From Macrocystis pyrifera (lineage: Eukaryota; Sar; Phaeophyceae; Laminariales; Laminariaceae): 64,000 bases of DNA. Shown one piece after another: positions 20,701 to 61,200 of the stretch (positions within the stretch are counted from its first letter, which is position 1; each line of letters opens with the position of its first letter). Below the pieces are notes generated by a model. That model worked only from the letters and a program-made list of their open reading frames with translations, was not told the DNA's origin and ran no database searches. The stretch is taken from contig JASSKH010000040.1 in NCBI GenBank assembly GCA_031763025.1, forward strand, positions 2,679,001-2,743,000, in the 5' to 3' direction. Made by a program: the position numbers and the translations under genes.

Positions 20701-21576
20701 TGCGAGCCCGCCTACCCCTCGCCGTCCCCGTGGCCCTGTTTGCGGCGTTCGTTTGGGGTTTCAACGGAGGCGCCATTGTCATAGGGGACAAGGAGAACCA
20801 TCTCCCCGGGGGGCCCGCCGCATCTGGCCCAGCTGGCCTATATGGTGGCGGCGTCGGCGGCTCTGTGGGGTGTCTTCGGGAAGGAGGCGGCTGTAGGGGG
20901 GGACGCTAGGAGGGGGTTCATGCGGTGGGTTCAGAGGAGGACGGGGTTGGTCGGCTTCGCCACGATTGTCGGCGTCGTGGCGCTTGCTCTGTGGAGGTGA
21001 GTGAGGAGATGCGGGGTGCGATGGTGGTATGTGTACGTGCGGTGGCACGCCGTGTATGTCTTCTCTCTCTCTCAACGAAACGTCGTGTGAGACTCGGTCG
21101 ATCACCTAGTAGCGGCACCTGGGGACTTCAGTTTGATGTATTCAAGTCAACCCCACCCTGTACCTGCCTTCCTTCCACCCGCTATGCTGAGCCCCCCCCC
21201 CCAACCCCCCCCCCCCCCCCGGCCATGCCATGAAGGACGCTTCCAGTATCAGTATGTGTAACTCCCGCTCGCATGTTCACCCTTCCCCGCTCCCCCTGTC
21301 CCTGTCCCTGTCCCCCCCCCCATCCCCTGTCCTCCTTCCCAAGTCCCTTACCCTCCCCCTGAAGCTGCCATCCGTACGCAAGTCCGCCTTTAAAGCTGTT
21401 CCTATTAATAGTAGGATGCAGCTCACACTTCATGCGACTTGCTGAACACCTTGCGGCGCTTCGCGCTAGGTGCAAGCAAAGCCTGCCTGGTCGGTGAAAA
21501 CCCGACGTGCTCCGTCCCGGCATTGTAGGGATGCGAGGGTCTATGGTCATACGACTACGGCCATGCATGATAACGA

Positions 21577-21608
<32 letters not shown>

Positions 21609-23884
21609 GCCGCCGCCGCCCAACCCCTCCCGCTGCCTGACACTGAAGGTACACTTTGTCCCACCCTTTCATCTTCGCCGATAACCGTCACTACACCTTC
21701 TACATATGGAGGTACTTGTTGGGGCACAAGGTTTTGCGCTCGCTCCTGGCGCCCGTGTACGTGTTCTGCGGCTGGCTGGTGCTGTCCCGCCTCCTCGAGC
21801 GGAAACCCCCTCTGTGGGTGCTGACCTACGTGGTGGCCTCGGCGCTTGTGCTGGTGCCTTCTCCGCTGATAGAGCCGAGGTGCGATTTTTTTTTTTTTTC
21901 TTGCTTTCTTTCGCCTCCCCCGAGAAAAAGTAATTAGGCGTTTTCCTGTCGGCCTTGAAATACATGGTTGGTTTGTTGTGTTAACATGATATCAAAATGG
22001 TCCCTATTTTAACGAACACGGGAGTGCTTGTATTACGGGGGACCATAGTAAATAGGACCTACGGTATACTGTAAAACCTACATATTTAACTATTTTTAGT
22101 AGCAGTATTTGGTCCTGTTTACTATGGTCTCCCGTAATATATACCTGGTATATATATATATATATAGATTCGTAGACGTATACATTCGGCGGACAGATCG
22201 GGATGTACTGTAGATCATACAGTAGTTCCTAACCTGCCATGTGGTGAAAATACTGCGCAATGTGTGTATTATTAATAGTGCAGACCCAACCCAGGGAACT
22301 GTTGGCACCTCTGTCATGATGAGATGTTGGTGCCGTATCTATGTGCATGTGAATAGTGTAGATCCTACCCAGGAAGCAGGTCCTTCGTGCAAGTTGGTGC
22401 GACTCCCACCCGGCAACGTGATCTATAGATCATATTGCGGGGGACCATAGTAAATGGGACCAAATGTTGCTCGTAGAAATTGGTAAATATATAGGTTTTT
22501 GTGTGTACCGTAGGTCCTATTTACTATGGGCCCCCGTAATAGTATAGATCGTACAGATCATTGAGATCATTGAGATCATCTGCCCGGAAAGAGCTATTAA
22601 TAGATTATGAAGCGGTGGTACTCCCATGATCTGTGCGAGAGGTGTGGCACTGTTGCCGTCTGCCCCCGCGGTCGCTACCGTACCGCAACCACCACCGCCA
22701 ATACCGCTACCACCACCATGACTGCCACAACTCCACACATGTCATAGATCAGTTTATGACGGTATTAATAGTAGCTCTTTCGAGGAAGTTGTTCATTGGA
22801 TAAGAACACACCTCACAGATCAGATCATGGTGTAGCTCTTTCGGGAAAGTTATTCACGGATACACATCTTACAGAGCAGATCATGATGTAGTAGCTCTTT
22901 CGGGAAAGTTGTTCATGGGTACACATGTCACAGATCAGATCATGATGTAGCTCTTTCAGGAAAGTTATCCATGGAAACATATCTCACAGAGAAGATCATG
23001 ATGTCGTAGCTCTTTCGGGAAAGTTATCCATGGATACACGTCTCACAGATCAGACCATGATCTAGCTCTTTCGGGAAAGCTACTCATTGGATCCCTGATG
23101 TAAATGACCTGCGCCATGTAGACCATGTTTTCCGAGTGGGATCTGTGTGACACAGCTCTTTGCGCACGTGTTTTTCCGGGTGGGATCTGCACGTTACAGC
23201 TCTTGCACAATCTCATCACGGAAAATAGATATTTTGTATAGTTTGTACAGGATCTAGGTGATTGAGATAGTGATGATCTACTCGAGAATCTAGATGATTT
23301 TTCCGATGCTTGATACCTCCCCCCCCCCCCCCCTGTCCCTGTCTCGAAAGACATGCCCCCCCCCCTCTCTCTCTCTCCCCCCCCCCCCCCTCCTGTCTGG
23401 AAAAGGATGCCCTCTTCCCTTCCCCCCCCCCCCCTTGTCTCGAAAGGAATGCGCTGTCAATCACTAAGGCAAGCAACTAATGAGTACGCCCCCCCTCTCC
23501 GTTTCCCTGTCTCCGTCTCGAAAGGGATGCGCGGTCAATGGTCAAGTCAGCACCAAATGAGTACGCCCCCCCCCCCCCTATCTCGAAACGGATGCGCGGT
23601 CAATGTACAAATTACTAAGGCAGGCAACTAGATTGAGTACCCCCCCCCCCCCCCCCCCGCGCGATCTACACGCCCATCCGCTGCCTACACGCCTACACGC
23701 TCGGGTTGACAGGTACCTTACCATCCCAGTGCTCCTGGCCCACCTCGAGTCGAGGGGGAGGGGCAAGGTCTCGCTGTTGACCGGCGTCGTCTCCTGCGTC
23801 GCCTTCCTTGCGACCATAATTTTCGTGTTTATAACGCGGCCGTTCGTGTGGGTCGACGGCAGCACGGGCCGTTTCATGTGGTAA
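4880..23884 (+). CDS. ALG10: Alpha-1,2-glucosyltransferase ALG10/DIE2, seven exons
   Basis: ER membrane enzyme (family GT59) that adds the third, terminal alpha-1,2-linked glucose to the dolichol-linked N-glycan precursor. Exons: 4880-5062, 12339-12390, 18983-19185, 19657-19835, 20064-20996, 21649-21879, 23713-23884. All introns are GT-AG with matching phases. Family landmarks run in the right order: EPYM|DETFHVPQAKLYC, GEWDPKITTPPGLYI, FLLYTDAGS, LFRQTNAVWV, NGGAIVIGDKENH, HPFIFADNRHYTFYIW, EPRYL and the C-terminal RFMW followed by stop. The product is about 650 residues, longer than the usual 460-530, mainly because of a low-complexity loop in exon 5. Two single-base frame breaks (exon 4 G-tract, exon 5 C/G-tract) interrupt the frame. 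They may be sequencing errors or real. The first ATG at 4880 is the only one seen in frame upstream of the first membrane segment. Confidence 0.93.
6067..6372 (+). mobile_element. tRNA-derived SINE, copy 1
   Basis: The first about 75 nt resemble a tRNA: A-box-like GGTGGCTTGGTAGGTGG, and B-box GGGTTCAAGTCTCACC near 6116-6133 inside a foldable T-arm. A conserved 230-nt body follows, ending GTAAAAGTGATGA with an A/T-rich tail. The same unit occurs at 18068-18405 and 31353-31677 in the same orientation. Confidence 0.8.
7065..7120. repeat. Pentanucleotide AAATG/AAACG microsatellite
   Basis: Runs of GAAATGAAATGAAACGAAAC. It is simple sequence in intron 1 of ALG10. Confidence 0.7.
8033..8380. repeat. 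CCGTCCCGTCCCG minisatellite, array 1
   Basis: About ten degenerate units of ACCGTCCCGTCCCGYCG plus a variable 10-20 nt tail. The same unit forms a second array at 10078-10540. Confidence 0.85.
8647..8844. repeat. 99-bp tandem duplication
   Basis: Copies start at 8647 and 8746 with AGCTGGCAACACAC and share GGAAAACAAAA and GGGTTTGTAGAGAGATCCA. Fragments of the same family (CCGGTTTCGGCTCCC-like) also occur near 9530 and 11610. Confidence 0.85.
10078..10540. repeat. CCGTCCCGTCCCG minisatellite, array 2
   Basis: Units of CCGTCCCGTCCCGTCGTGAAAA separated by short A-rich tails, homologous to the array at 8033-8380. Several ORFs here (RRDGTxxY-type repeats) are by-products of the repeat. Confidence 0.85.
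11796..12050. repeat. 75-80 bp tandem repeat, about four units
   Basis: Units begin TTGRCGGCACTCTTGACCCT and end CCCTACACTAA. The repeat lies in ALG10 intron 1. Confidence 0.85.
12178..12304 (+). repeat. TCC/CTC trinucleotide tract next to ALG10 exon 2 acceptor
   Basis: About 125 nt of nearly uninterrupted pyrimidine ending 34 nt before the acceptor at 12338. It may serve as an oversized polypyrimidine tract for the 52-nt exon 2 (inference). Confidence 0.8.
12339..12390 (+). CDS. ALG10: ALG10 exon 2 (52 nt)
   Basis: Acceptor TTGGTCAG, then codons for DETFHVPQAKLYCQGKY and one extra base, then donor GTGGGT. The preceding exon ends EPYM, which gives the family motif EPYMDE.FH.PQA...YC. The split codon G|GC with exon 3 gives YGEWDPKITTPP, so the phases agree. 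A 52-nt exon lying between 7.3- and 6.6-kb introns is easily missed by gene predictors. Confidence 0.92.
12405..12790. repeat. Degenerate GATAC/GATAT/GATG low-complexity stretch
   Basis: Dozens of GATAC, GATAT and GATGTG words in loose tandem, with two TACCWGGTA words near 12758 and 12770. Confidence 0.75.
13345..15490. repeat. Inverted tandem array of about 45-bp AATTGTCCGGACAATT units
   Basis: Units carry GGAATTGTCC.GACAATTGAT plus TTCGGxxxCTGTCTA. They read in one direction at about 13345-13900, in the opposite direction at about 14100-14670, and in the first direction again at about 14880-15490. The unit core is itself palindromic. There are no unique spacers and no cas-like genes. Footprint words TATTAATA lie at 13330, 14183, 14655 and 15520. 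Confidence 0.85.
15500..16430. other. Intronic stretch without recognisable gene
   Basis: Contains a 38-nt tandem duplication (CGGGGTATACACACGGTTGT at about 15555 and 15590) and an ORF at 16054-16420 with no recognised domain. Confidence 0.55.
16432..16604 (-). mobile_element. Poly(C)-tailed repeat R1, minus copy
   Basis: Read on the minus strand it ends GGTCATACGACTACGGCCAT, GCATGAGATCGAGTACA and then poly(C), seen here as G-runs at 16432-16439. The other side is cut by a second G-run at 16604-16622. The family consensus is described under the 41690-42045 copy. Confidence 0.75.
17041..17140. repeat. About 58-bp tandem duplication
   Basis: Two copies of TTGGGATNNCACNGAAACCC followed by CGATATAATAGGGCG. 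Confidence 0.7.
17692..17727. repeat. AT microsatellite
   Basis: Uninterrupted ATATAT run. Confidence 0.9.
18068..18405 (+). mobile_element. tRNA-derived SINE, copy 2
   Basis: Same family as 6067-6372. Relative to copies 1 and 3 it carries short insertions exactly at TA dinucleotides: TA to TACGAGTA at 18082-18089 in the A-box region, and TA to TATTACTA at 18209-18216. The tail is ATTTAAAA. Confidence 0.8.
18700..19020 (+). repeat. Three degenerate tandem copies of the ALG10 exon 3 acceptor region
   Basis: CGCAGGCGAATAGGATCCCA (about 18713), GGGCAAATGGGATCCCCA (about 18851) and CGCAGGCGAGTGGGACCCCA (about 18980, the real exon) recur at about 135-bp spacing, each preceded by a related upstream stretch (CCCAATTTTATC / CCCAATCTTTTAT). 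Only the last copy keeps the frame and a good acceptor. Confidence 0.75.
18983..19185 (+). CDS. ALG10: ALG10 exon 3
   Basis: Acceptor GCCGCAG. The exon codes for GEWDPKITTPPGLYIFAVAY and a hydrophobic segment with CSAQVLRQVNWLFSLG, matching the WDP.ITT.PGLY and C....LR..N.LFS motifs of the family. Donor GTGAGA, phase 0. It forms the first luminal loop and second membrane helix. Confidence 0.93.
19186..19656 (+). other. ALG10 intron 3 with a duplicate of the exon 3 donor end
   Basis: At about 19420-19500 a degenerate copy of the exon 3 end (coding-like SPGMLAVMIPIFLKRVV against SLGTLAVMRSIFLRRMV) is followed by the same donor-like GTGAGG and a T-then-G run as after the real exon. Several G-runs (8-17 nt) are present. 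Confidence 0.75.
19657..19835 (+). CDS. ALG10: ALG10 exon 4, one-base frame break
   Basis: Starts after TTCAG (or 12 nt later after GGTCAG, same phase). The product contains ALSHAVLLWLYPVSFYFSF and LLYTDAGSNFFILLCYSLA, as in the family. The exon must end in phase 0 to join exon 5, giving SALVGTISILFRQTN, but as sequenced it ends in phase 2. One extra base in the G-rich tract 19787-19817 would fix it. Donor GTGAGA at 19836. Confidence 0.88.
19836..20063 (+). other. ALG10 intron 4 with C-rich tract
   Basis: 228 nt, strongly pyrimidine-rich with a run of about 17 C near 19971-19988, acceptor CACGCAG. It is open in one frame with exon 5 but is not part of the protein by family comparison. Confidence 0.8.
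20064..20996 (+). CDS. ALG10: ALG10 exon 5 with low-complexity insertion and a frame break
   Basis: Begins VGTISILFRQTNAVWVAF (family motif FRQTN.vWV). About 130 residues of Pro/Ser-rich then Gly/Ser/Asn-rich sequence (about 20155-20600, including a Ser run from a TCA repeat) have no counterpart in typical ALG10 and probably form a loop. Conserved sequence resumes at FSAIPSLVLAL and continues to WGFNGGAIVIGDKENH. Directly after, in the C4G6C3 tract near 20803-20815, one base too many moves the frame. The continuation in the other frame is PPHLAQLAYM..ASAALWG, which fits the family. Donor GTGAGT, phase 2. Confidence 0.88.
20997..21648 (+). other. ALG10 intron 5, carries a poly(C)-tailed element
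   Basis: The R1 element at 21366-21608 lies in sense orientation and its C-run ends about 40 nt before the exon 6 acceptor, where it may act as part of the pyrimidine tract (inference). Confidence 0.8.
21366..21608 (+). mobile_element. Poly(C)-tailed repeat R1, plus copy with TATTAATA scar
   Basis: From GCTGCCATCCGTACGCAAG to GCATGATAACGAGTG and about 28 C. At 21403-21410 it has TATTAATA where the other copies have TA (TTCTTAGTAGG against TTCCTATTAATAGTAGG). Confidence 0.85.
21649..21879 (+). CDS. ALG10: ALG10 exon 6
   Basis: Split codon AG|G, then YTLSHPFIFADNRHYTFYIW, the most conserved ALG10 block, then membrane segments and LIEP with split codon AG|G. Donor GTGCGA. Phase 2 on both sides. 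Confidence 0.95.
22033..22137. mobile_element. 105-bp TTACGGGGG palindromic MITE, copy a
   Basis: Ends TTACGGGGGACCATAGTA and TACTATGGTCTCCCGTAA, flanked by TA on both sides, with AAACCTA..ATTT in the centre. No ORF. Non-autonomous Tc1/mariner-like by its TA target. Confidence 0.9.
22435..22539. mobile_element. 105-bp MITE, copy b
   Basis: TTGCGGGGGACC ... GGGCCCCCGTAA with TA on both sides, in ALG10 intron 6, opposite internal orientation to copy a. Confidence 0.9.
22755..23215. repeat. About 60-bp tandem repeat TAGCTCTTTCGGGAAAGTT
   Basis: Six or more units of GTAGCTCTTTCGGGAAAGTT followed by ATGGATACACATCTCACAGA and TCAGATCATGAT. The TCTTTCGGGAAAG core is a short hairpin. Confidence 0.85.
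23320..23658 (+). repeat. Cluster of poly(C)-tailed R2 3' ends
   Basis: At least three successive pieces of TCTCGAAAGGGATGCGCGGT, GGCAAGCAACTAATGAGTAC and C-runs. They resemble repeated 3'-end insertions of the R2 tail described at 61680-61780. Confidence 0.75.
23713..23884 (+). CDS. ALG10: ALG10 exon 7 (last coding exon)
   Basis: Split codon gives EPRYLTIPVLLAHLE, a membrane helix LLTGVVSCVAFLATIIFVF, then RPFVWVDGSTGRFMW and TAA at 23882. A short C-terminus ending RFMW is typical of the family. Confidence 0.95.
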
Positions 23885-24297
23885 AGAAGAGAAGAAGCGA
23901 AGAAGCGCCCCCCGTTTTTCTTTCTTCTTTGTTCTTATTTCTTCTGCTTTTTCCCTCCCTCCCTCCTTTTTTTTTTTGAATTTTGTGTTTTGGGGTTAGA
24001 GTTGTCATTTTCGGGTTTTTTGGGATTTTTGGTTCTTGGTTTTTGGCGCCTGATGTGCCCGGTGGGATGGATGATAGCTGAATGGGCCGGTGGTACTTGG
24101 GAGCTTTTTCCGTCTTGTTGGTGGTGGCGGCCGCGACGTCAGCGGTGATGGAGTTTTTCCACTCCTCCCCCCCCTCCCCCCTCCCTCCCTTCCTTCCCCC
24201 CCACCCATCTCTCCCTCCCTTCTTTCCTCCTTGGAAGGCGAGATATGAGCTTAAGAGTTTCATGTGCTTCGTTTCCTTTATTTTATTTTGCTTGTTT

Positions 24298-24540
24298 TGC
24301 TTCGAACAGAGATGTTGGATGTGTGGTTCCATGCACTGGTTCTCGTCAGAATTGCGTTTTTGTGTTTTTTGCTGCGAACATGCATGTGGGGTTCCATGCA
24401 TTGGTTCTTGGCAGAACTGCGTTGCTTTTTGCTTCGAACAGGGATGTGTTGTTCCACGGGATGGTTATCGGCAGAACTGCGTTGCTTTTTTGCTTCGAAC
24501 AGGGATGTGTTGTTCCACGTGTTGGTTCTCGGCGTAGTTG
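24298..24540. repeat. About 62-bp tandem repeat just downstream of ALG10
   Basis: Four to five units of TTTTGCTTCGAACAGGGATG followed by TGTTCCACG and GGTTCTCGGCAGAACTGCG. ORFs of the type FCFEQGCVVP on this strand are repeat products. Confidence 0.85.
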
Positions 24541-24819
24541 TACGATATTTGTACGATATTTGCCCGTCGTTGTGGTTGTCGACACAAGTAAGTGATGTGT
24601 GTCCATTTTTTAGTTTTTTTTTGCGCAAGCGTCGATTTCGACGATGTGTTTCCGTGGGTTGGTTCTGTTATTAATAATTGGCAGAACTGTCGGGTGTTGT
24701 ACAATTCTTATCCTATGCATTGGATCTCGGCAGGAGAAGTGCCCGGCATTGTGCGACATGTGTCCATGCTCTCAAGGGTGCGTTCGGTAGCGTATGCTGG
24801 GTGTTCTGGGTATTCCGGG

Positions 24820-26291: not shown

Positions 26292-26513
26292 GGAGGGGGG
26301 GGGTGCACTCGATATCATGCATGGCCGTAGTCGGGGGGGTGTACTCATTTATCATGCGTGGCCGTAGTCGTATGACCATAGACCCTCGCATCCCTACAAT
26401 GCCGGGACGGAGCACGACGGGTTTTCACCGACCAGGCAGACATTGCTTGCCCCAAGCGCGAAGCGCCGTGATGCGTTAGGCGAGTCGCGTGAAGGGTGAG
26501 CTGCATCCTACTA
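26292..26513 (-). mobile_element. Poly(C)-tailed repeat R1, minus copy interrupted by a MITE
   Basis: Carries the R1 landmarks (GCATGGCCGTAGTCGTATGA, GGGACGGAGCACGACGGG, GAGTCGCGTGAAGGGTGAGC). It is broken exactly at the TA of CATCCTACTA by the element at 26514-26618. A further tail copy with a G-run lies at 26290-26345. Confidence 0.85.
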
Positions 26514-26618
26514 TTAAGGGGGGCCATAGTAAATAGGACCTACGGTACACACAAAAACCTCTATATTTACCTATATTTACTGACAATCGTTGGTCCTATT
26601 TACTACGGCCCCCCGTAA
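26514..26618. mobile_element. 105-bp MITE, copy c, inserted in R1
   Basis: Starts TTAAGGGGGGCC, ends GGCCCCCCGTAA, flanked by TA. The host R1 sequence is CATCCTAC on the left and a diverged AAGTACTGC on the right. Confidence 0.9.
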
Positions 26619-26769: not shown

Positions 26770-26874
26770 TTGCGGGGGACCATAGTAAATAGGACCAAAT
26801 ATTGTTAGTAAAAATAGGTAAATATATAGGTTTTTATGTTTACCATAGGTCCTATTAACTATGGACCCCCGCAA
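26770..26874. mobile_element. 105-bp MITE, copy d
   Basis: TTGCGGGGGACC ... GGACCCCCGCAA with TA on both sides. Confidence 0.9.
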
Positions 26875-26951
26875 TAGATCAACTACATGGTAGTGGTCTG
26901 TCCCTCTAGTGCCGGGTGAGCAGTGCCGGCTGCCCGCTATAGTGCCTGTGA

Positions 26952-27057
26952 AATCGGACCATAGTAAATAGGACCAAGTATTGTTCTTAAAAAATAGGTA
27001 AATATATAGGTTTTTTATGTATACCATAGGTCCTATTAACTAGCGACCCCCGTATTA
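26952..27057. mobile_element. 105-bp MITE, copy e, left end damaged
   Basis: Starts at GGACCATAGTAAATAGGACC without the TTACGGGG end. The right end is GACCCCCGTATTA. Confidence 0.8.
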
Positions 27058-27149
27058 AATGGGCTTAACCAGTTAGTGTGCTATTAATAGTGCCGGTCGC
27101 CGCTATAGCTGCCGGTATGCGCCAGCCAGCGATACCGGCACTATATCTA

Positions 27150-27254
27150 TTACGGGGGTCTATAGTTCACAGGACCTATGGCATACATAAAAACCTATAT
27201 ATTTAGGTATTTTTACTAACAATATTTGGTCCTGTTTACTATGGTTCCCCGTAA
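27150..27254. mobile_element. 105-bp MITE, copy f
   Basis: TTACGGGGGTCTATAG ... ACTATGGTTCCCCGTAA. TA on the left, TG on the right. Confidence 0.9.
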
Positions 27255-27833: not shown

Positions 27834-27938
27834 TTACGGGGGTCCATAGTTAACAGGACCTATGGTGTACGTAAAAAACTATATATTTGCCTATTTTTAC
27901 TAACAAAATTTGGTCCCGTTAACTATGGACCCCCGTAA
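27834..27938. mobile_element. 105-bp MITE, copy g
   Basis: TTACGGGGGTCCATAGTTAA ... TTAACTATGGACCCCCGTAA, flanked by TA. One of the most symmetric copies. Confidence 0.92.
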
Positions 27939-28358: not shown

Positions 28359-28463
28359 TTACGGGAGACCATAGTAAATAGGACGTACGGTACACACAAA
28401 AACCTGTATATTTCCCTATTTTTACTGACAATATTTAGTCCTATTTACTATGGTTCCCCGTGA
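28359..28463. mobile_element. 105-bp MITE, copy h
   Basis: TTACGGGAGACCATAG ... CTATGGTTCCCCGTGA, flanked by TA. Confidence 0.9.
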
Positions 28464-29109: not shown

Positions 29110-29214
29110 TTACGGGGGACCATAGTAAATAGGACCTACGGTACACACGAAAACCTATATATTTCCCTATATTTACTAACAATATTTAGTCCCATTTACT
29201 ATGTCCCCCCGTAA
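29110..29214. mobile_element. 105-bp MITE, copy i
   Basis: TTACGGGGGACCATAG ... CTATGTCCCCCCGTAA, flanked by TA. On the right it is followed by CTACAGCAGTA. Confidence 0.9.
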
Positions 29215-29629: not shown

Positions 29630-29734
29630 TTACGGGGGTCCATAGTTAACGGGACCAAATTTTGTTAGTAAAAATAGGCAAATATATAGGTTTTTATGTA
29701 CACCATAGGTCCTGTTAACTATGGACCCCCGTAA
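29630..29734. mobile_element. 105-bp MITE, copy j, inside the tandem array
   Basis: Perfectly TA-flanked; the host site is GTTGGTTA|TAGTAAC, equivalent to GTCGGTTAGTTGG of the array. Ends TTACGGGGGTCC and GGACCCCCGTAA. Confidence 0.93.
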
Positions 29735-30540
29735 TAGTAACTTTCCTCGCCACCCAACTAATAATAGCTAGCCGTCAAGCTAGTCGAGACCGAAAAAAGT
29801 CGGTTAGTTTGCTTGCTCGCCACCCAAGTGGTATCTAGCCGTCAAGCCAAGACAAATAAAAGGTCAATTAGTTGGCGTACTCTCGCCACCCAAGTAGTAT
29901 CTAGCCGTCAAGACAAGACTTAAAAAAAAGCGGTTAGTTTGCTTGCTTCGCCACCCAACGAAAGACTAGCCGTCAAGTCAGCCAAGACCAAAACAAAATC
30001 GGTTGATATAGTTGGCTTGCTCTCGCCACCCTACTATTAATAGTAACTAGCCGTCAGGTCAAGACTAAAAAAAGTCGGTTTTGTTGGCTTATTCGCCACC
30101 CAGGTAGTAATTAGCCGTCAACGGCAAGACTTAAAAAAAGCCGGCTAGTTTACCAATGAAGTAGGTCGGTTAGTTGGCTTGCTCTCGCCAACCAAGTAGT
30201 AACTAGCCGTCAAGACAAGACTGTTGAGAACGGCGCTCAGTTGGCTTGCTCCGCCACCCACTACAAACTAGCCGTCAAGTCAGTCAAGACCAAAAAAACG
30301 AAATCGCTTATTAATAGTATAGTTGGCTTACTTCGCCACCCAACTACAATAGTAACTAGCCGTCAAGTCGAGACTGAATAAAATCGGTTAGTTGGCTTAC
30401 TCTGGCCACCCAACTAATAACTATTAATAGACGTCAAGTCGGGTACTTGGCTCACATCGCCACCCAACTCGTAACTAGCCGTCAAGTCGAGACTGACTAA
30501 AGTCGGCTAGTTGGCTTAATCTCGCCACCCAACTAGTCAA

Positions 30541-30885: not shown

Positions 30886-31352
30886 TCAAAAAGTCAGTCA
30901 GGACGGAAAAAAGTCGGTTGCAGTAGTTGGCTTACTTCGCCACCCAACTAGTATCTAGCCGTCAAGTCGAGACTGAAACGTCGCGGATATAGTTGGCTTA
31001 TGTCGCCACCCAAATAGCAATTAGCCGTCAACGTCACGAGACTAAATTCGGTTAGTTGGCTTATTTCGCCACCCAACTAGAAACTAGCAGTCAGGTCAAG
31101 ACTAAAAAAAGTCGGTTTAGTTGGCTTACTTCGCCACCCAACTAGTCTAGTAACTAGCCGTCAAGTCGAGACTGAAATTGATTATTAATAGTAGGCTTAT
31201 TTCGTCACCCAACAAATAACAAGCCGTTAACGTTAAGACTGCAAAAATAAATTGGAGGTCAGGTCGAGCCTGAGGAAAGTCGGTTAGTTGGCTTACTTCG
31301 CCACCCAAAACAATACTGGGTACCTGGTAGTAACTAGCCGTCTACATACGTG

Positions 31353-32139: not shown

Positions 32140-33187
32140 ACCAGTAACTACTGCTGTAGTAATCAGAACCAAATATGGCTGACAAACGTAGGGGGAGCCG
32201 ACTGCGATTTTAGCTTTTAGGGTCCATTTTGGATTCTGATAACTAACTAGGCCCGCCGTAATCGTAGAACAAGCAAGCGTATGCCTGCTGCACGTGGATA
32301 TGATGTACAGATAGATACCTGGTACAAGACAAAACCGGTTGTCATCTAGCGTGGAAATCCCTTTGAATTCAACTACTAACTGTTGCCCGCGCGGTACGAC
32401 GTTGAGCGGGGAACCTCTTGTCGGAGAGGGAAGCGCCAAGTCCCGCGGCTCACGTACAGTAGTGCAGCATGTGAATATCGTTGACCGTCAGCGTTTCCGT
32501 CTTGTCTCCCACCCTTTTCTTTTGGTTCATCCCATTTTTTTAATCTCTTTGCCTTTCTTTTCCCTCTCTCTCCTACAGCAGCAGTAGTCGCACCTCAGAT
32601 CTGGGGTAACCTATGAATAGTAGGCTTTTTTTCCAACCTCCCCATTAAGGTACCGCGAGAAGTTCTCAGCACTATCTCCCCCTCGGCGACTCGCGTCGAG
32701 TTGTGCATGACCACTGCAGTACCAACCACTATTAATACCACGTACTATCCGTTACCAACACTATCAGTACTGCTGCATACGAAAAACAAAAAAAAAAGAG
32801 TGAAATAAACAAGAAAAAGTATACGCCTACATACCCCTGTAAAAAAAAAAGAAAAAGAAAAAAGGGATACGAATTACAGTTTCAAACAACGAACGGTCAA
32901 AAGCAGCTGTTACAACCAACGGTTATAAAACAACAGCTATTGATAGTTACGCACGCTGCGATGGGGGTGCACCCAATTTGCTCCTTCCTGACTTGAGGAT
33001 CTCCTACTCGTACTATTCTCTACCAAATCACCCAAAACTGACTTTCGAGAGAAAACGAAAGTGCAGCCCGATGGTCTCCACAGGTAAAAGTATACAACGA
33101 ATACCACGTAAAACACAATTTCCCCCAAGAAAAAAAAATGTGATGTTCCAACGATTTTGGCTGCTACCAATGTACATACTTCCTCGG
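32140..33187. other. Stretch without recognisable gene
   Basis: A-rich simple sequence and short ORFs only. TACTGCTGTA at 32149-32158 sits where the array has TA. Confidence 0.55.
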
Positions 33188-36718: not shown

Positions 36719-36823
36719 TTACGGGGGACCATAGTAAATGGGACCAAATATTGTTGGTAAAAAAAGGGATCTATATAGGTTTTTGTGTGTACCGTAGGTC
36801 CTATTTACTATGGTCCCCCGTAA
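36719..36823. mobile_element. 105-bp MITE, copy k
   Basis: TTACGGGGGACCATAG ... CTATGGTCCCCCGTAA, flanked by TA. Confidence 0.92.
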
Positions 36824-36854: not shown

Positions 36855-36963
36855 TTACGGGAGGGGACCGTATTAAATAGGACCTACGGTACACACAAAA
36901 GCCTATACATTTCGCTATTTTTACCAACAGTATTTAGTCCTGTTTACTATGAGCCCGCCGCAA
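36855..36963. mobile_element. 105-bp MITE family, copy l (109 nt)
   Basis: TTACGGGAGGGGACCG ... GAGCCCGCCGCAA, TA on both sides, lies 31 nt from copy k. Confidence 0.88.
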
Positions 36964-37121
36964 TAGTGAATACCCGTGAAGTCCTACCCTCTCACAGCTC
37001 TAGCATTCGGACTCTGATACCAATATGAAACGGTGCGTAAATTCCGCCCCGCCAGAGCGGTACCACGTACCAGGTACGCCCACGAGCCTTTGCTCATCGG
37101 GCTAAGCGAACATTTTTTTTT

Positions 37122-37316: not shown

Positions 37317-37365
<49 letters not shown>

Positions 37366-37445
37366 AGTCATACGACTACGGCCATGCATGAGATCGAGTA
37401 CATCTCTCCTATCGAGTACACCTCCCCCCCCCCCCCCCCCCTCCC
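37317..37445 (+). repeat. 49-nt poly(C) plus R1 tail fragments
   Basis: 49 uninterrupted C (37317-37365), then AGTCATACGACTACGGCCAT, GCATGAGATCGAGTACAT and a second GAGTACACC with another C-run. Two R1 3' ends follow each other. Confidence 0.8.
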
Positions 37446-37854
37446 CCCGCCCCCTACCATGGACCGAACTTACCCAGGTATCCGGGTGGGATGTACCGGT
37501 ATCGAGTTCGTTCCGAACCTTACCGGAGTGTTCGGTAGGGTATTGTGGCCGAATCGAACCGTACCGAAGGCCGTCGGTAGGGTATTTACCGAGAAAATAC
37601 CCACCGATATACTTTGGTACGTATATCATGCACCCTTTTCAAAAATTCGTTAAAAGGTACCAGGTACCCTGGTGTACCAGTACGAGGCGATACCTACAGT
37701 CAGTAGTGGTCCCTCTGTATAGAGTGCCGGCATGCGCCAGTCAACCATTTCGGCACTATAGCGGCCACCGGCACTAACTACTCCCCACCCTCTACCATAC
37801 CACCACACTGGCGAATCCCATCTGTCTGGGCCAAGCGATTCCACAGGCACTATA

Positions 37855-41689: not shown

Positions 41690-42045
41690 GGGGATGATCG
41701 TATCGCGTAGTGTGTATATGGTGAGGCACCCACATCGAGGCAGTTGCACAGTAACTGAACCCCTTGCTGTCCCTGGAAGTGGCCACACCAGAAATTAAAT
41801 CAACTCACTGATGCTATCATCCATACGCAAGAAAATCCGCCTCTAAAGCGGTTCTTAGTAGGATGCAGCTCACCCTTCATGCGACTCGCCCAGCACCTCA
41901 CGGCGCTTCGCGCTTGGTGCAAGCAATGTCTGCCTGGTCGGTGAAAACCCGACGTGCTCCGTCCCGGCATTGTAGGGATGCGAGGGTCTATGGTCATACA
42001 TACGACTACGGCCATCCATGATAATGAGTACACCCCCCCCCCCCC
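41690..42045 (+). mobile_element. Poly(C)-tailed repeat R1, longest plus copy
   Basis: Extends from GGGGGATGATCGTATCGCG through GGCAGTTGCACAGTAACTG, CCTGGAAGTGGCCACACC, GTTCTTAGTAGGATGCAGC, GCAAGCAATGTCTGCCTGG, ACGTGCTCCGTCCCGGC and CTACGGCCATCCATGATAAT to GAGTACACC and 15 C. No ORF with a domain. It could be a SINE or the 3' UTR of a LINE. TA to TACATA insertion at 41997-42002 compared with other copies. Confidence 0.82.
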
Positions 42046-46050: not shown

Positions 46051-46155
46051 ATACGGGGGACCATAGTTAATAGGACCTACGGTACACACAAACACCCATA
46101 TATTCACATATTTTTACTAACAATTTTTGGTCCTATTTACTACGGTCTCCCGTAA
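46051..46155. mobile_element. 105-bp MITE, copy m
   Basis: ATACGGGGGACCATAG ... ACTACGGTCTCCCGTAA, flanked by TA. Confidence 0.9.
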
Positions 46156-46907
46156 TAGTAGCATGGACCCTTTTGGGCCAGCATCGACCTTTTTTTTTCA
46201 GACTAAAAAAGCTTCCAGCAAACAATAATAACGCGATCGACGAGTTTTTGTATGAACCAAAGACAATATCAGTCTGACCGGACATACCAGTATAGTGTAA
46301 GATTACTTTGTACATATTTCGGCCATCGAAACGTACCTCACATTTTCTACTATTAATAGACTGAGAGGTCAGCCAAATCAATCCTACCGAAACGAAAAAT
46401 GCAACACAACTGAACATCGGTGGAGCGTCTATTAACAGCTGAAGTTGTCTACTTTGTTTTTCCCGAAAGCGAATGGCCACAGCCCTCCAGCGGCGGACAG
46501 ACAGACCCCGGCGACAGCAGGGTGGGCAGCTACTGTACGAGGGTAGAGGTGTACGCGATCGCCGCGGCTTTCCCGTGTGTGAAAAAAAAAACAAGCAAAG
46601 GCAAGAAAGACCACCTAAATAATCTTGGTGCACCTAAATAATCTTAGTGGGGCCAGCTGCCGGATTGCTCACACGTCCGTCGAGTGTGTTCGGCGTGCGG
46701 GTCAGCTTCTCGGGCTACAGTCGTCGTTGCGTACGTCGCCCGCTGCCGCCTGTCGCTAAAAGCTACCCAGCTCGGGCTAGTCTTTTTGCGTACTTCGCCT
46801 CCTGTCAGCTTCTGGCGCCAAAATTTATTCACAAACTAGTCGCACCTAAAAGCTTAGCCCAATCATACCGACCACCTGGTACAAGAACTTGCTTCTATCT
46901 ATAGATG

Positions 46908-47262
46908 GCGGGGGGGGGTGTACTCGATAGGAGAGATGTACTCGATCTCATGCATGGCCGTAGTCGTATGACCATAGACTCTTGCATCCCTACAATGCCG
47001 GGACGGAGCATGCCGGGTTTTCACCGACCAGGCAGACATTGCTTGCACCAAGCGCGAAGCGCCGTGAGGTGATGGGCGAGTGGCATGAAGGATGAGCTGC
47101 ATCCTACTAAGAACCGCTGTAGAGGCGGACTTGCTTACGGATGGCAGCTTCAATGAGTTGATTTAATTTCCGGTGTAGCCACTTCCAGAGACAGCAATGG
47201 GAGTACTATGCAACTGCCTCTTGGGGGTCTTACCAAAAACACTACGTGATACGATCGTTCTC
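46908..47262 (-). mobile_element. Poly(C)-tailed repeat R1, minus copy
   Basis: Full body plus the 5' extension GTAGCCACTTCCAGAGACAG and CACTACGTGATACGATCG. The TA site in CATCCTACTAAGAACC is empty. A G-run of about 30 nt follows at 47265-47294. Confidence 0.85.
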
Positions 47263-48859: not shown

Positions 48860-48978
48860 GAGCGTTACACGAAGTCCTACCACAGTGGCCATAAATATAA
48901 GTAACGTTTTTCCGTTGCTATTTTATGCAAAAATTCCTTATATTTACGGCCAGAGTGGTGGGACTTCGCGTAACGCTC
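48860..48978. mobile_element. 119-bp palindromic element, distinct family
   Basis: Left arm GAGCGTTACACGAAGTCC, TACCACAGTGGCCATAAATA. Right arm is its near-perfect inverse ending GGACTTCGCGTAACGCTC. Single copy in the window; target duplication unclear. Confidence 0.75.
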
Positions 48979-49495
48979 GCCTCTCAGCACACGATTTCTT
49001 AGTCCATTTTGTCTTTTAGCGTCCCCTAAAAAGTTTTGCCTCACGAGGGCAGCGGCTTAACTTTCGTATTCTCGTTAGGCTCTGTTTCGTGGGCCCATAG
49101 TTCAGTGCAGTGCGCGGGTGCAATGTACCAGTAGTATTTATCCTCGTAGTGTACCGAAGTGTTGTGTGTAAGGCGTACGTAATGTGGTGGTAATAGTGCA
49201 GGAATAGCGTAGCGAAGGGTAGTCTATACACACATGCACACCTCCGACAGACAGATCAGACAGATCATGATATATATCTATCTATAGTAGACCATCTAGT
49301 CCTCACCTACCTGCCGTTGTGAGAGATTGGGCAGGACCCGCATCTACAGCAGTAGTACAGATCCAACCCAGGAAACATGTCCCACATAGATCGTGCAGAG
49401 TGTACGACGTCTCGCACTCGGCGACAATGACGAGCTAGACCCTACAGATCAGGAATCTATCTATCTATCTATCTATCTGCCCTGAAAATATCTAT

Positions 49496-49612
49496 TACGG
49501 GGGGCCATATTAAATAGGACCTACCTGGTACGGTACACACCAAAACCTATATATTTCGCCATTTTTACTGACAATATTTGGTCCTACCGGTATTTACTAT
49601 GGTCCCCAGAAA
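49496..49612. mobile_element. 105-bp MITE family, copy n, with two TA scars inside
   Basis: Relative to other copies it has TA to TACCTGGTA (49522-49530) and TA to TACCGGTA (49585-49592), which explains its 117 nt. Ends TTACGGGGGGCC and a damaged CCCCAGAAA. Confidence 0.88.
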
Positions 49613-51885: not shown

Positions 51886-52080
51886 AAGTACCGACTACCG
51901 GACTTATTGGGTTTCCATACTTGTAGGAAGGATTGTTGAATGCGGGATAGATAATTTTGTTTTGAGTGGGTCCTCTCGGTCGAGCAGGGATGTTTTGGTT
52001 CGCTACGCCCGCTTGAAGTAAGTCGGAAAGTCGGCTGGTCGTCAGCTGGCTTCGCCAGCCGACTTGCCGACTGAAGTCAG
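51886..52080. repeat. About 195-bp dispersed repeat B, copy 2
   Basis: Homologous to 36519-36716; ends CAGCTGGCTTCGCCAGCCGA, CTTGCCGACTGAAGTCAG. Confidence 0.7.
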
Positions 52081-52084
52081 ATAA

Positions 52085-53245
52085 TTGGATAACGGCACAT
52101 GCCCAGTCGTGAAATCCTGCTGACTCAATACAGCTCTACAAATTGGACTTCGATTTTCCGAACCGTTTTTTTCTTTAACCGTTATTGGCGGCCCTACTGC
52201 AGTACTGGCCATTCCTAACGAACGAAATAAATCACGATTCGTGAGGTTTTCGTCGCGAAATCGTGTTTTTTTTTTTCTGGTCATGATTCACGACAAAAAC
52301 CTCACCATTCATGACGCCAATTTTTAGCTGCTTTCCCCTAAAGAAAAAAACAAAAATCAAGCTCCGTGACTTTTTGTCGTTGCTCGAAGTACGCCCGATC
52401 CAACACAGTACGCAACCCACGCGCACCAACGGTTTCCGAAGAAAACTATACGGGCATGGCAGACTCTGCTTCATGCCCCGATTGCGGACAGCGGGCTGCT
52501 GCCCAAAGACACCGCTGGGTGCGAGCTATCGAGTACGTTGTGGCCTCTGAATCTCTAGGAGGAGGAGCCACAGCGCGAAGAAAAAGCGAAAATAATCTGA
52601 GAATCTCACAGGCCAGGCGGGCAGACGACCCGTGAGATCAGAATCTCGCGGGCTGGGTCAGGCTCCCGTCTCTGATTATAATATGCCACGGGCCGGGCCG
52701 GGCCGGGCGCAGTTGGCCCGGCCCGGTCTGGCCGTACTCCATCCGCGAGAGTTGGACCCACCCGAAAAAAAAAAAACCGTTGGATTTGAAATATCGGAAA
52801 AATTACAGTTCGAAAATATAACGAAACGTGACGTTTTTTCAGCTTTTATCGTTAGAATGGACATGTCGCGGATCGTGATATATATATATATTGGTTCTTT
52901 AGGAGCAGCCCTAAGTGCGTGCGCATGTATAATGATTCAAAATTTGTTTCGGCCACTGTCGTCTACGGCGCTCAACGCACACGGAACCAACGCCGCTCCC
53001 GACGGGTTTCGTGCACGCAACACATACCAACGAACCCTTCTCGTGCTGTTCCGATATAAGTCGTCGAGAGTTGATCGAGACAGGTGCGAGACCGCGTGCT
53101 TCCATAGGCATGGCTTGAGACAAGCTCCTAAAAACCTCTGGAACGCATAATATGTCCTAATGCATGAAAATTATATTACGTTCGTAACGAGTATACGTGT
53201 TCTGGGGAAAAAATCTCTGCCGAGCGAGGGCGATACGTAGCCTAA
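52085..53245. other. Stretch without recognisable gene
   Basis: The longest ORF is 52632-53150 (172 codons, +), with no recognised domain and partly GGGCCGGGCC low complexity. Confidence 0.5.
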
Positions 53246-53249: not shown

Positions 53250-53355
53250 TTACAGGGGACCAAAGCAAATAGGACCAAATATTGTTGGTAAAAATAGGTA
53301 AATAGATAGGTTTTGCGTTTTTACCGTAGGTCCTATTTTCTACCGTCTCCCGTAA
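53250..53355. mobile_element. 105-bp MITE, copy o
   Basis: TTACAGGGGACCAAAG ... CCGTCTCCCGTAA, flanked by TA. Confidence 0.88.
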
Positions 53356-55014: not shown

Positions 55015-55119
55015 TTACGGGGGATCATAGTAAATAGGACCAAATATTGTTAGTACAAATAGGTAAATATATAGGTTTTTGTCTGTACCATAGGTCCTAT
55101 TAACTATGGAGCCCCGTAA
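55015..55119. mobile_element. 105-bp MITE, copy p
   Basis: TTACGGGGGATCATAG ... CTATGGAGCCCCGTAA, flanked by TA. Confidence 0.92.
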
Positions 55120-55131: not shown

Positions 55132-55236
55132 TCACGGGGGACCATAGTAAATAGGACCAAATATTATTAGTAAAAATAGGTAAATATATAGGTTTTTGTG
55201 CATACCGTAGGTCCTATTAACAATGGACCCCCGTAA
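55132..55236. mobile_element. 105-bp MITE, copy q
   Basis: TCACGGGGGACCATAG ... CAATGGACCCCCGTAA, 12 nt from copy p, same internal orientation. The left TA is mutated. Confidence 0.88.
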
Positions 55237-55553: not shown

Positions 55554-55658
55554 TTACGGTGGTCCATAGTTAATAGGACCTACGGTACACACAAAACCCA
55601 ATATATTTCCCTATTTTTACTCACAATATTTGGTCCTGTTAACCATGGTCTCCCGTAA
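55554..55658. mobile_element. 105-bp MITE, copy r
   Basis: TTACGGTGGTCCATAG ... CCATGGTCTCCCGTAA, flanked by TA. Confidence 0.9.
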
Positions 55659-56868
55659 TAATAGGCGGGTAAAGAAGTGAAGGAATCCGTCGAAACGCGG
55701 CACTGGCCGTCTTCCTGCGTAGTTGAGGTGTGCAGCGACTACAGCAGTGCTTCCTGTGCTCCGGCCCAGCCCAGTCCCTGTTCTTCGTTGTGTTGCCTTG
55801 TGGACGAATACCTATGTTACCGGTACAGGCAGGGCAACTGCTGCTTATTGCCTACAGTCCGCAGGCAGTAATTCCTGCCATCGTATGTATGACTTGTACG
55901 GATCATACCTGGTACAATATATCTCAATCGTGACAAGATACGTGCAGCCCTCCGGATATTTTTATTTTTACTACTGCTGTAGTATTTTATTTTCTCAAAA
56001 TATACACACCCACTCTTTGAATTCTGCAGCTTCAGATTTTGTCTTCCTGATACGAAGTGTACGAGCTTGTATACCCTGCACGAGGTCGTTTTAAAACCCG
56101 TACACGCGATCGAAGTATGACACACGGCTTGCAAATATGAGATTCGACGATACCCTCGATCTCACAGCTGTTGTTTTGATTTTATAAATATATCCACTGA
56201 TTTACGTAGACAGCCTGTACACATCGAATTGCGACACTTGGCCGGAGTTGAGTGTACCGAGATGCTGCCCGAGAGGCACAGCGCCTATGCCTGAGGCATT
56301 TTTTGGTTGGGACATATCTTGAAAATTCTGGAAATTTCTGCCAAGTAGCACCAAAATCACAGACGACTTTTGCAGGAATTTGAAAAGGACAAGCGTCGGT
56401 GATTGGCACCGCGATCGCGCCGCCTTTGTCAGACGAGACGAGAGGCGGCGCGCGCGAGGAAGAGAGAGAGACCTCTGTTGCTACTCGCAATCTCAGACAG
56501 TCGACGCGGCAGAGGGCGGCCCCAACACCATGCTCGTGTGGCGGTGTCTCCCCCCTATACGTAGTATGCGCCTTGTTTTATGTCTCGGAGTCTGTGGACG
56601 GGTAGAAAGTCGGGGCCAGCGCAGCCTGCGGTCCCTTTACGTACGTACCCTCATCCACCCAGAGGCCACAGGCGAAAGTTTTGAGTACGTGTGCGTAGCT
56701 AGACCACAGCAACACCTGCACCAGGCTACAACACCAGCAGCAGTAGCGTCGTCTCCGTCAATCCGAGCTCTGACCCTTTGCCTGCAGCAGCGGACAAACC
56801 CCGTGCTTGCAGTGGCTATACATAATAGGACGCGTTTCCCGTCAAGTTTCAAATACCTGGTATTAATA

Positions 56869-56982
56869 TTACGGGGGTCCATAGTTAATAGGACCTACGG
56901 TGGTATACATAAAAAACTACCAGGTATATGTTTACCTATTTTAATAACAATATTCGGTCCTATTTACTATGGTCCCTCGTAA
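56869..56982. mobile_element. 105-bp MITE family, copy s, at a nested scar site
   Basis: Left flank reads TACCTGGTATTAATA directly before TTACGGGGGTCC. Inside the element TA has become TACCAGGTA (56918-56926). 114 nt. Confidence 0.9.
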
Positions 56983-57482: not shown

Positions 57483-58124
57483 CATTCTGTTCTGTCGACC
57501 AGGTGGTGAGTGTCGGAGGGTGGACGACGCCAGGTGAAACAAGAGTCAGATTGTCAGTCTTGGTAGCTTCTGCACTAAAACCATAAAATCCAAGTACGAG
57601 CCGCAGCAGGGACGATCGTAACTGCACGTATCTACCGTTGCTCTAGGCATTGACAACAACAGTAGCATCGAGCCCACAGGAACCGACCTGTGAGCTGCTG
57701 GGGCTTGGCTTGCTGGTGCTTGCACGGAGCGAACGGCAAAATGCACTACGGTTAGCATACTAGATTCAACGTAGATGAAGATCGACCGGAAGTTTCGTTG
57801 TGCTCTATGCACACCAGACTGGCACGGCAGACACGTGAAAAATCTGGAACCAAATACTCTTTCTCACTTGCAAGCTAGCGATTCCTGAGGTATGTACGAG
57901 TGGCTCACCTCGTCGTCGTATTCCATCATCATAATGCTGTCCGTTGTGCGCCGACTGCCGACTGCGCGATTTGGGAGAAAACATGTTTATAGTCAAATTG
58001 GAGGCATGTTATAGGAGGGGTATTTAGCATAATATCCCCTGCTCGGATACCTTGCCTACGAGAACAGCAGTATCGATACGAGCGAAGCTTAACCCTTACT
58101 CCCACCCACCCTCCCGGAACTAAC

Positions 58125-58223
58125 ATGGCCCCTAAGTTCGACCTCGGTACACCCAAGGGCCTGGGTGGCTTCAACGGCTTCATCACGTCCAGGTCGTACG
58201 TGGAGGGCTATGCTTACTCCCAG
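58125..58223 (+). CDS. eEF1B exon 1
   Basis: 33 codons MAPKFDLGTPKGLGGFNGF, ITSRSYVEGYAYSQ. Donor GTAGGT, phase 0. A C-rich stretch (ACCCTTACTCCCACCCACCC) lies just upstream, as is common before translation-factor genes. Confidence 0.93.
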
Positions 58224-61200
58224 GTAGGTTTGCGTGGAACATCTGATTCCGACGCATTTTCTTATTTCAGAGCAGTATCTCACCACAGCAGACATGACCG
58301 CCGTACTGAGAGCGGACAATGTTTTGACTGGCCGACGTGAGCGACAAGCACGATGCAAAATAACGCCAAGAGGGTTGCCACGCGGTGCTTGATCTGCGTG
58401 CTTGATTTCTCTTTTGGGGCTGCATCGTTGTGAGATGTGGGAGCTTGGTTGAGCTCTTACAGCAATATGTCTATTTTGGTACCAGGTACCTGGTACGTAT
58501 TTCTGTATACATATTTGGGTGGCTATCGGACCTGTGGTGGAGGATTAGGCATGAGATACGAAGGGTCACAGGGTCACAGCAGGAGAAAAAAGGGAGAGAG
58601 GAATGGGTTTAGGGCTGGATACCTGCCCTGTGACCATTGCCGTTGTGGCCGTGTGTTCTGCTTTGCTGATCGTGATAACTGTCGAGCTGTAGTCAACGCT
58701 GTTACGCATTGCATTGCACAACAAGCGGCCGGCCCTATTATGGCGAAATGCGTTCTACGTACGTACACAAGTTGTGGGTGAGTTTCGACTTTACCTGCTG
58801 GTATCGGGTAACGATGCATGCCGCATGCCCTGCACGGCGGCTGCCTTCCAACTCTGCTGAGTATGCGAGGACACGATGCCCATCACTTGCGTGCTCCTAT
58901 ATCATTCATTGCTGCTGCATTGGACTACCGGTACATAGTAGCACATAGGCATGCCTGGGGTTATCTTACAAGGGACAAGCAGGATCCAGCACACAGCAGT
59001 TCGTGTTACCACCTGGTACGTACCAGGTACCTTGGTATGTGATGCCCATACAGCCCTCACCAGTATAATGACCAAGTATATATGTACGCTTTCTCTGCCA
59101 GATACACTGTTACAGCAGTACTGCACAGAGTATTAATATTTAGTATGTACGCTTTCTCTGCCAGATACACTATTATAGCAGTACTGCACAGAGTATAGAG
59201 TATTACAAATATTCAGTGCAAAGTAATATCTGGAATTCCAGCAGTATTCAAGATGTTTTTGAGTTCCTCGATACAATGTACACGTGTGCCTGTGTGCAAG
59301 TGACCCAACCGAGATTCGAACCCCGACGCGACCGCCGATAGGGCGACACCAGCAGTTTACCCGGTGTATAAACCAGGGATGCATATTGCGCGTTACATGT
59401 AACGCTCGCGTTCACCAATCGAAATCCACGAGCCGTTCGTTCGCTAAATTCTTGACGTTCGCGGAATTTAATACACTCGCCCTGGATGGGAAATGCCTCC
59501 CAATATACCGGAAACCCTTCTGTTTCCCTGCAAGGAGGTGGTAGTTTTCCATCCCCCGTATTAACGCCTTTCGAGATTGTCGTTGGCCATTCTAGGACGC
59601 CTTTCACACTTATTTTAGCCGCAACGTTCGCATCCCTGGTTACAATGGGTTGATTTCTGTGTTCCTGTTGTTTTTTTTCCGGGGCTGTTTGCGCGTGATG
59701 GACTATTAATAGCTAGTCATGACCCGACCCGGTCAGAAGATGTTCAAGATGTCACGGGTCGGGTCGGATGAAGTCAGGGAGTGCTAAAAATATGTCGGGT
59801 CCGGCCGGGTCAGTTCAAGCGGTTTTCAAATCTCGCCGATCGGGTCAGGTCGAGTCAAGAGTTTTTCGAATCTCACGGGTCGGGTCAGGTCGGGTCAAGA
59901 GTTTTTCAAACCTCCGGGGTCGGTTCTGGTCGGGTCGGATCAAGAAGATTTTGAAATCTCACGGGTCGAGTCAGGTCGGTCAGGAGGGGATAAAAACTAT
60001 TACGGGTCGGGTCAGGTCATGACCCGCGAGAAACGGGTGACCGGCGTGTCGGGCCAGCATGACCCGCGAGTTGTTTTTTGGTGACAAGCGGGTCGGACCC
60101 GCACGAGGATCAGGCCCGCGGATACGACGTTTCCAAAACTTGCTGCTTTCTTCCCGAAGGCTTCTCTGGTGCTACTAACACTCAAAGTATCCTTGGGTAT
60201 CGTGTTTAAATATTAAACCACCACCAAATCTATATACGCATGTCCGCATCCATCGATACTCACTACCAGGCCATGTATCACTGCGGGGCACAAAAATGAA
60301 GGTTAAATGGTTGTCGGAGTGTCGACCCACGGGGCGGATCTGTGGGTCGAATCCGCGGGCCGATAAAATTGGTCTCGCGGGTTGAGGTGACCCGGCCCGC
60401 GACACGACCCGTATCTCGCGGGTCGATCGGGATCTGGCGAGTCGGGTCGGGTCAGGAGGTGTTCAAAATCTCACGGGTCAGGTCGGGTCGGGTCAAGAGG
60501 TTTTCAAAACTCACGGGTCGGGCCGGGTCAGCTGACCCGGCCCGACCCGACCTGACCCGCAAAGTTTGACCTTACCCGCGCACAGTCCTGCTTTTTTTTC
60601 CCTGCCACCAACGCACGATAAGTTGGCAAAGATCCTTCTGCGCGAGTTCCCAGCGACAACTCTCTCAACTGTCGTGGATTTATGATTCCTTCAAATGTGA
60701 TTGCTGCTGTATGCCCGGTGTCGGTCAGGCGGATGCGGACGTATTCTCCTCATGCTCCGGCGCGCCGGACAAGGCCAAGGCTCCCCACGCCTACCGCTGG
60801 TTCATCCACATCGCCGCAATCAAGGGCGTGCGAAGGTACGGTGCGGTGCGATCGGTAGTCGGTCGGTCGGTCGGTCGGTCGATTCTGCCGCCGCTGCTCT
60901 TGCTGCTGCTTGTGTTGCTACTGTTTGTGGTGGTGTTGCTGCTGCTTGCGTTGCTGCTGCTGCTGCCTCTGCTGCTCCAGTACGAAATCGTTTCATGTTG
61001 CCGTAAAATACGACAAGGCAGCATGCGACGGCCCCGACTACTGTGCAGGTTGTGTCTGGTTGCTCTTTCATACTGCACAGGTGTGTTCATACTACGTTCG
61101 CTTGCTCTTGCTCCGCTCAGATGCTTCTGAGCGGCAGGTCAACTAAATCCCTTCATACAAGCAACAAGCAGTAACGCCTCCGCAGCAACAGAGGCGAAAC

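Follow-up and report, generated by a model that had tools for sequence, protein, structure and literature searches.

Tc1 of C. elegans, an element that targets TA, leaves the footprint TACATGTA, in which two terminal bases of each end stand between two TAs. Other described groups differ in ends, target or excision: Stowaway elements end in CTCCCTCC, piggyBac duplicates a TTAA target and excises seamlessly, and PIF/Harbinger produces a 3-bp TNA duplication. We analyzed 64 kb of the brown alga Macrocystis pyrifera (contig JASSKH010000040.1, positions 2,679,001 to 2,743,000; hereafter the window), which harbors a family of miniature inverted-repeat transposable elements (MITEs) of 105 bp together with many copies of the 8-letter word TATTAATA, very probably the canonical excision footprint of this family. 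Unless another contig is named, the counts, repeat tests and element searches reported below refer to the window. The putative scar is like that of Tc1 in its TA target and in the two terminal bases per end kept between two TAs; here, however, a 105-bp MITE with TT...AA ends gives TATTAATA, and the long open reading frames (ORFs) scanned (10 of 42) contained no transposase.

Excision of Tc1/mariner elements generates 2 or 3 bp 3' overhangs, and the repaired footprint consists of the overhang flanked by the target duplication (PMC3878927). Sleeping Beauty, Frog Prince and Hsmar1 resemble the MITE in leaving characteristic footprints that derive from such overhangs, but those described in this source read C(A/T)GTA or T(T/A)A, whereas the M. 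pyrifera scar is TTAA, i.e., four bases with no A/T alternative (PMC3878927). Similarly, the Stowaway MITEs of grasses belong to Tc1/mariner, duplicate TA, leave footprints of a few end bases and are described as inserting at an old footprint (PMC1925063, PMC4561436); for one Triticeae locus, the footprints inferred were of five kinds (PMC1925063), whereas a single exact form is dominant here. In the rice excisions described, 8 of 94 left exactly two copies of the duplication and the rest carried deletions, filler or both; such "perfect" excision keeps no end bases and so differs from the TATTAATA product (PMC4423477). Among brown algae, non-autonomous Tc1-Mariner elements are reported to be numerous in Ectocarpus, with a named example of 217 bp, and are thus like the MITE by description, as brown-algal and non-autonomous elements, rather than by sequence comparison (PMC12477816). 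The main text of that paper, which calls brown-algal transposon biology underexplored, contains none of the terms MITE, excision and footprint (PMC12477816).

The 105-bp MITE family

Copies of the MITE were defined by pairing matches of one 27-base end, which gave 20 copies in the window. Exactly 105 bp is the length of 14 of them, and these differ from each other by 14.7% on average. The terminal inverted repeats are 27-bp ends found in pairs, mostly TTACGGGGG...CCCCCGTAA or one to two bases off. When two copies with degenerate ends are left out, TA stands on the left of 16 of 18 copies and on the right of 16 of 18, one of the right-side misses being the copy at 62182, whose end was set 2 bp short. 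The element had been predicted to begin with TT, to end with AA and to be flanked by TA, and both ends and flanks bear this out. The copy at 29630 is predicted to fold into a long hairpin (z = -10).

Three hallmarks of Tc1/mariner are present: TA is duplicated on insertion, as empty sites have one TA; the element has terminal inverted repeats; and two or three terminal bases remain between two TAs, as seen in TA-TT-AA-TA compared with TA in paralogues. The element thus has the behavior of a Tc1/mariner-type MITE whose excision leaves 2-nt overhangs. A DDE/D transposase of this superfamily with matching ends, which would be expected to mobilize it, was not among the 10 of 42 long ORFs scanned. 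Membership of three other groups was considered and rejected: the MITE ends are TTACGGGGG and not the CTCCCTCC of Stowaway; its empty sites are TA without TTAA and are exceeded by the scar by six bases, unlike piggyBac; and the filled and empty sites of the copy at 26514 fit a 2-bp TA rather than the PIF/Harbinger duplication.

Abundance of TATTAATA

The word TATTAATA occurs 25 times, compared with a mean of 0.96 and a maximum of 5 in 100 dinucleotide shuffles. Markov models of orders 0 to 3 expect 0.92, 0.88, 0.53 and 1.84 copies; orders 4 to 6 expect 6.95, 15.4 and 23.2, these models already including most of the word. The original prediction, 25 copies against about one by chance, was accurate in each coordinate and in the chance expectation, which the shuffles (0.96) and the low-order models (0.53-1.84) reproduce. 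Of the 16 TA-XY-yx-TA palindromes, just two exceed five copies: TATATATA (59 copies), which lies in microsatellites, and TATTAATA. Likewise, TTAA has TA on both sides in 25 of 167 occurrences (15%), against 0.58% for all 4-mers; the only 4-mer flanked as often is TATA (59/369, 16%), in microsatellites. After sites with similar flanks were merged, 23 of the 25 flanks were distinct.

One-mismatch neighbors of TATTAATA are also in excess (41 against 17 expected), which is compatible with decayed scars, though part of them may be repeat-borne. Candidate footprints of other lengths (TATTTAATA, TATTACGTAATA, TATTATAATA and others on the list) have 0 to 2 copies each in the window. TATTATA and its complement, tried as footprints, occur 7 times each against 4.1 each expected and were not convincing.

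Three states of one TA

The TATTAATA site at 21403..21410 lies in a repeat whose relatives near 41808, 44657, 46958 and 39688 all have plain TA at the scar position (4 of 4), and a further relative, near 26362, carries the MITE 26514-26618 at the same TA. Two other relatives (16479 and 35731) are uninformative, their alignments stopping short of the site. The joined flanks of MITE 26514 match 41848-41955 and 47014-47120 through the junction, with a single TA.

The same three states recur in an array of ~65-bp units at 29.5-32 kb, where the scars at 30035..30042, 30422..30429 and 31183..31190 stand at positions at which sister units have plain TA. The first reads CCCTAC-TATTAATA-GTAACTAGCC compared with CCCAAC-TA-GTAACTAGCC in sister units, the second AAC-TATTAATA-GACGTC compared with AAC-TA-GCCGTC, and the third GAT-TATTAATA-GTAGGCTT compared with GGT-TA-GTTGGCTT. 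The MITE at 29630 occupies the array-unit TA of the scar at 31183, and its empty site is a single TA in 17 overlapping array alignments. The alternation of TATTAATA with TA and with TA-MITE-TA, proposed earlier as a check, was therefore found at the TA of 21403 and 26514 and again in this array. Two other units (30344 and 31142) have TA-CAA-TA and TA-GTC-TA at the array TA of scar 30035, either because one TA was hit by several elements or through slippage.

A search for empty sites of all 20 MITEs returned seven matches through the junction, of which three were used (26514, 29630 and 36719). The third has a single TA in one relative (51991-52098), where a 4-bp gap adjoins it. The candidates at 55015 and 55132 were dropped since the match is a neighboring MITE region, that at 62182 for a weak match (67%) and that at 27150 for a junction alignment that was not clean.

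When TATTAATA is collapsed to TA, 5 of the 25 scars match elsewhere at 25/30 or better, compared with 7 of 283 control TA-N4-TA sites, from which TATATATA and (TA)n contexts had first been excluded (371 sites in total). Among the seven matching controls, three are themselves scars in shifted register (21406, 30032, 30038), and the other four are TA-flanked differences at 49585 (TACCGGTA), 18082 (TACGAGTA), 24902 (TACCTGTA) and 4088 (TATCAATA), the last being one base off TATTAATA. In a scan for repeat-supported inserts of 2 to 12 bases between any like dinucleotide pair, with tallies by length covering the commonest lengths only, inserts of length 4 fell between TAs in 7 rows (5 loci after register merging) and between any other pair in at most 2.

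Target preference

Scars and MITEs share a target preference. In symmetrized flanks, the first three bases outside TA are G 0.57, T 0.60 and A 0.50 for 21 of the 25 scars (four sites in an array at 13.2-15.5 kb being left out), G 0.53, T 0.50 and A 0.53 for the MITEs, and G 0.21, T 0.29 and A 0.28 for all TAs. Scored on a profile built from 32 flanks of 17 MITEs, with 3,748 TA sites as background, the 21 scars rank above the background (site-level p = 3.1e-8; 4.7e-9 for all 25). A reduced test, from which repeat-borne sites, sites next to a MITE and paired sites were excluded for MITEs and scars alike, gave p = 1.6e-5 (14 MITEs, 14 scars). A second abundant word, TACCWGGTA, does not score on this profile, whether its 26 sites are taken whole (p = 0.58) or flank by flank (p = 0.69). 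Because the flank preference is common to both, TATTAATA is tied to the 105-bp MITE family and not to TA elements at large.

Competing sources of TT...AA ends were sought as TA-flanked inverted pairs (ends of 16 nt with 13 or more matches, no more than 4 kb apart), a design that misses longer or more decayed elements. Out of 60 such pairs with TT...AA ends, 59 lie inside MITE copies and one in the array, here 13.2-15.6 kb, and no other dispersed TT...AA-ended family was seen by this search in the window.

Mechanism and rival explanations

In the mechanism proposed, a Tc1/mariner-type transposase, supplied from elsewhere, would excise the MITE by a cut that leaves its two terminal bases on each flank as 3'-TT overhangs. 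These would then be filled in and joined, so that TT...AA ends and a 2-nt overhang turn the TA of the empty site into TA-TT-AA-TA. We infer the type of transposase and, from this product, the overhang length and repair by fill-in. Such a mechanism is ordinary, indeed textbook Tc1/mariner; the density and the sameness of the scars are unusual.

Several results weigh against this explanation. Four of the 25 sites are doubtful, confounded by the AATT-rich array at 13.2-15.5 kb, whose own unit contains TATTAATT / AATTAATA and of which they may be point variants (13330, 14183, 14655 and 15520); the claim of 25 scars thus holds for about 21 sites, which are free of that doubt, and is doubtful for these four. 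Paralogues give strong proof for 4 of 25 scars (21403, 30035, 30422, 31183) and weaker proof for two (30309, 59131); for the other 19, collapsing yields no match of at least 22/30 elsewhere in the window. Over all lengths from 2 to 12, repeat-supported insertions are fewer between TAs (26) than between GT (57), GG (50) or TG (37) pairs; TA leads only at length 4, and the excess of GG and GT is mostly at lengths 6 and 10. CTCG sites are slightly elevated on the MITE profile as well (14 sites, p = 0.04; 0.08 in the reduced test). Finally, the 10 of 42 long ORFs scanned held no transposase, the sole match being the reverse transcriptase of a long interspersed nuclear element (LINE).

This last result would suit an origin of the scars from a different TA-inserting element with TT...AA ends, either an unseen autonomous partner or another family, as would the fact that the footprint keeps just two bases per end. 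Such an origin is nevertheless unlikely: the scars carry the target preference of the MITE, two of their positions are MITE positions in repeats, and the inverted-pair search revealed no other dispersed family with these ends. An autonomous partner, moreover, would have the same ends and hence be partly the same explanation. It is still less probable that TATTAATA is a pre-existing target, unoccupied or precisely vacated, of an element that is really CGGGGG...CCCCCG and inserts at the central TA with TA duplication. The letters TATTA-element-TAATA do fit at copies with intact ends, and like flanks for scars and MITEs are predicted in this case too. However, the empty sites of the MITEs at 26514, 29630 and 36719 are TA without surrounding TTAA, the relatives of the scars at 21403, 30035, 30422 and 31183 have TA and not TATTAATA, and the 25-fold excess of the word is left unaccounted for. 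We give equally little credence to TATTAATA being a motif of regulation or replication, or an AT-rich satellite by-product: the four sites in the array with TATTAATT in its unit point that way, but most other sites have unrelated flanks, and at the four strong sites the repeat relatives are without the additional six bases. Excision of the resident MITE family is by far the most probable source of the word.

Positions of MITE copies and TATTAATA sites

On the forward strand, the 105-bp copies placed by end pairing are at 22033..22137, 26514..26618, 27150..27254 (TG in place of the right TA), 27834..27938, 28359..28463, 29110..29214, 46051..46155 and 55554..55658; those on the reverse strand are at 22435..22539, 26770..26874, 29630..29734 (inside the 65-bp array), 36719..36823, 55015..55119 and 55132..55236 (GA in place of the left TA). 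The remaining copies comprise two with degenerate ends (26949..27055, reverse; 36856..36964, forward), one of 106 bp (53250..53355, reverse), one whose right end has one extra C (62182..62287, forward) and two longer ones on the forward strand, of 118 bp (49495..49612, with TA-CCTGG-TA and TA-CCGG-TA insertions) and 114 bp (56869..56982, with a TA-CCAGG-TA insertion).

Besides the four sites with strong paralogues, the weaker pair consists of 30309..30316, in the 65-bp array, whose best paralogue has TG, and 59131..59138, at a tandem-duplication junction, where the neighbor copy has TA (22/30). The exact word at 56861..56868 adjoins the MITE at 56869. Probable scars are found at 5934..5941 (with no paralogue for a test), 6447..6454 and 6456..6463 (a pair 1 bp apart), 8627..8634, 10898..10905, 12868..12875, 22270..22277, 22595..22602, 22763..22770, 24669..24676, 27082..27089, 32730..32737, 46351..46358 and 59704..59711. 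The doubtful array sites are 13330..13337, 14183..14190, 14655..14662 (array unit cAATTAATAGAC) and 15520..15527.

A second footprint word and other inserts

The word TACC(A/T)GGTA has 26 copies against 0.69 expected (16 after merging similar flanks), for example at 5858, 6394, 31321, 49522 and 56918. Three copies have plain-TA relatives, namely those in the MITEs at 49495 and 56869 and that in the array at 31321, which by our reading sits at the same array-unit TA as scar 30035. The word is probably a footprint left by another TA element, one with CC...GG ends, although no resident element with such ends was identified in the window. The word resembles the C(A/T)G footprint described for Sleeping Beauty, one base longer per side (PMC3878927).

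Two of the other TA-flanked differences also have relatives with TA. TA-CCGG-TA at 49585 lies inside the MITE 49495-49612 and corresponds to TA in other copies of the element, and TACCGGTA has five copies in the window. TA-CGAG-TA at 18082 lies in a repeat that looks tRNA-derived and has TA at that position at 6066; TACTCGTA/TACGAGTA occur 14 times against 2.3 expected.

TA-flanked inverted arms of ~100 bp, 3.9 kb apart, were also observed at 3965-7898 (three matching pieces) and may bound a longer DNA transposon. Two further short TA-flanked inverted repeats lie at 4258-4356 and 48866-48972.

Novelty and significance

The 105-bp MITE was not met in the open-licence literature searched in PubMed Central, a description present only in a repeat library or unpublished being possible, and TATTAATA together with footprint and transposon found no match in the same literature. 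We regard it as a new element with a known mechanism. The original prediction had scars slightly outnumbering resident copies; with 21 to 25 scars and 20 copies, the ratio is about 1:1 with no clear excess. What is unusual is that the scars are near-uniform at such a ratio and that a single window holds more than one type of decodable footprint: the earlier footprint comparisons cited above concern single loci or two species, whereas here one exact form is about as frequent as the element in 64 kb.

A broader proposition, which we consider evenly balanced between true and false, is that this genome keeps a decodable record of cut-and-paste transposition. Families targeting TA (TTAA; CC(A/T)GG with CCGG; possibly CTCG) would each have their own near-uniform footprint, at about one per 2.5-3 kb for each of the first two, and excisions would about equal resident copies. 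Short words alone could then reveal how active a family had been in the past, even where no copy of it is resident, and the uniformity of TTAA would imply unusually faithful joining of non-complementary 2-nt overhangs. If one exact form is about as frequent as the element throughout the genome, an assembly alone could serve to count excisions and to measure both target preference and the fidelity of end joining.

Related sequences in other contigs and further features

The MITE end is present in three contigs filed as bacterial metagenome-assembled genomes (L002, L003 and L004), with 0, 1 and 3 copies of TATTAATA, respectively (expected 0.00 in L003 and 0.03 in L004, the L004 counts covering 8,000 of 12,215 bases). 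In L004, which has several MITEs, one TATTAATA adjoins a MITE, as does 56861 in the window, and three more TACC(A/T)GGTA occur, two of them, by our reading, inside MITE copies. Positions 2949-3044 of this contig are resembled by the inverted repeat at 4258-4356. L002 has a LINE 72-74% identical to that of the window. Because of this LINE and of the several MITEs in L004, both contigs are probably eukaryotic host DNA contaminating the bacterial genomes. L003 (66% GC) is similar to the window at the MITE only, and another contig (L001, 36% GC) has one MITE-end match and no further similarity to the window. Neither the MITE end nor a repeat-head pattern was found in viral contigs.

The window is eukaryotic in its make-up. 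Its LINE reverse transcriptase frame (PF00078), with further frames upstream, lies on the reverse strand at 138-2703; the one named relative among the best 120 of 1,065 matches is from Ectocarpus sp. (55% identity, 62% query coverage). Long poly-C runs are numerous on the forward strand, e.g., at 19946-21650 and 37317-37470.

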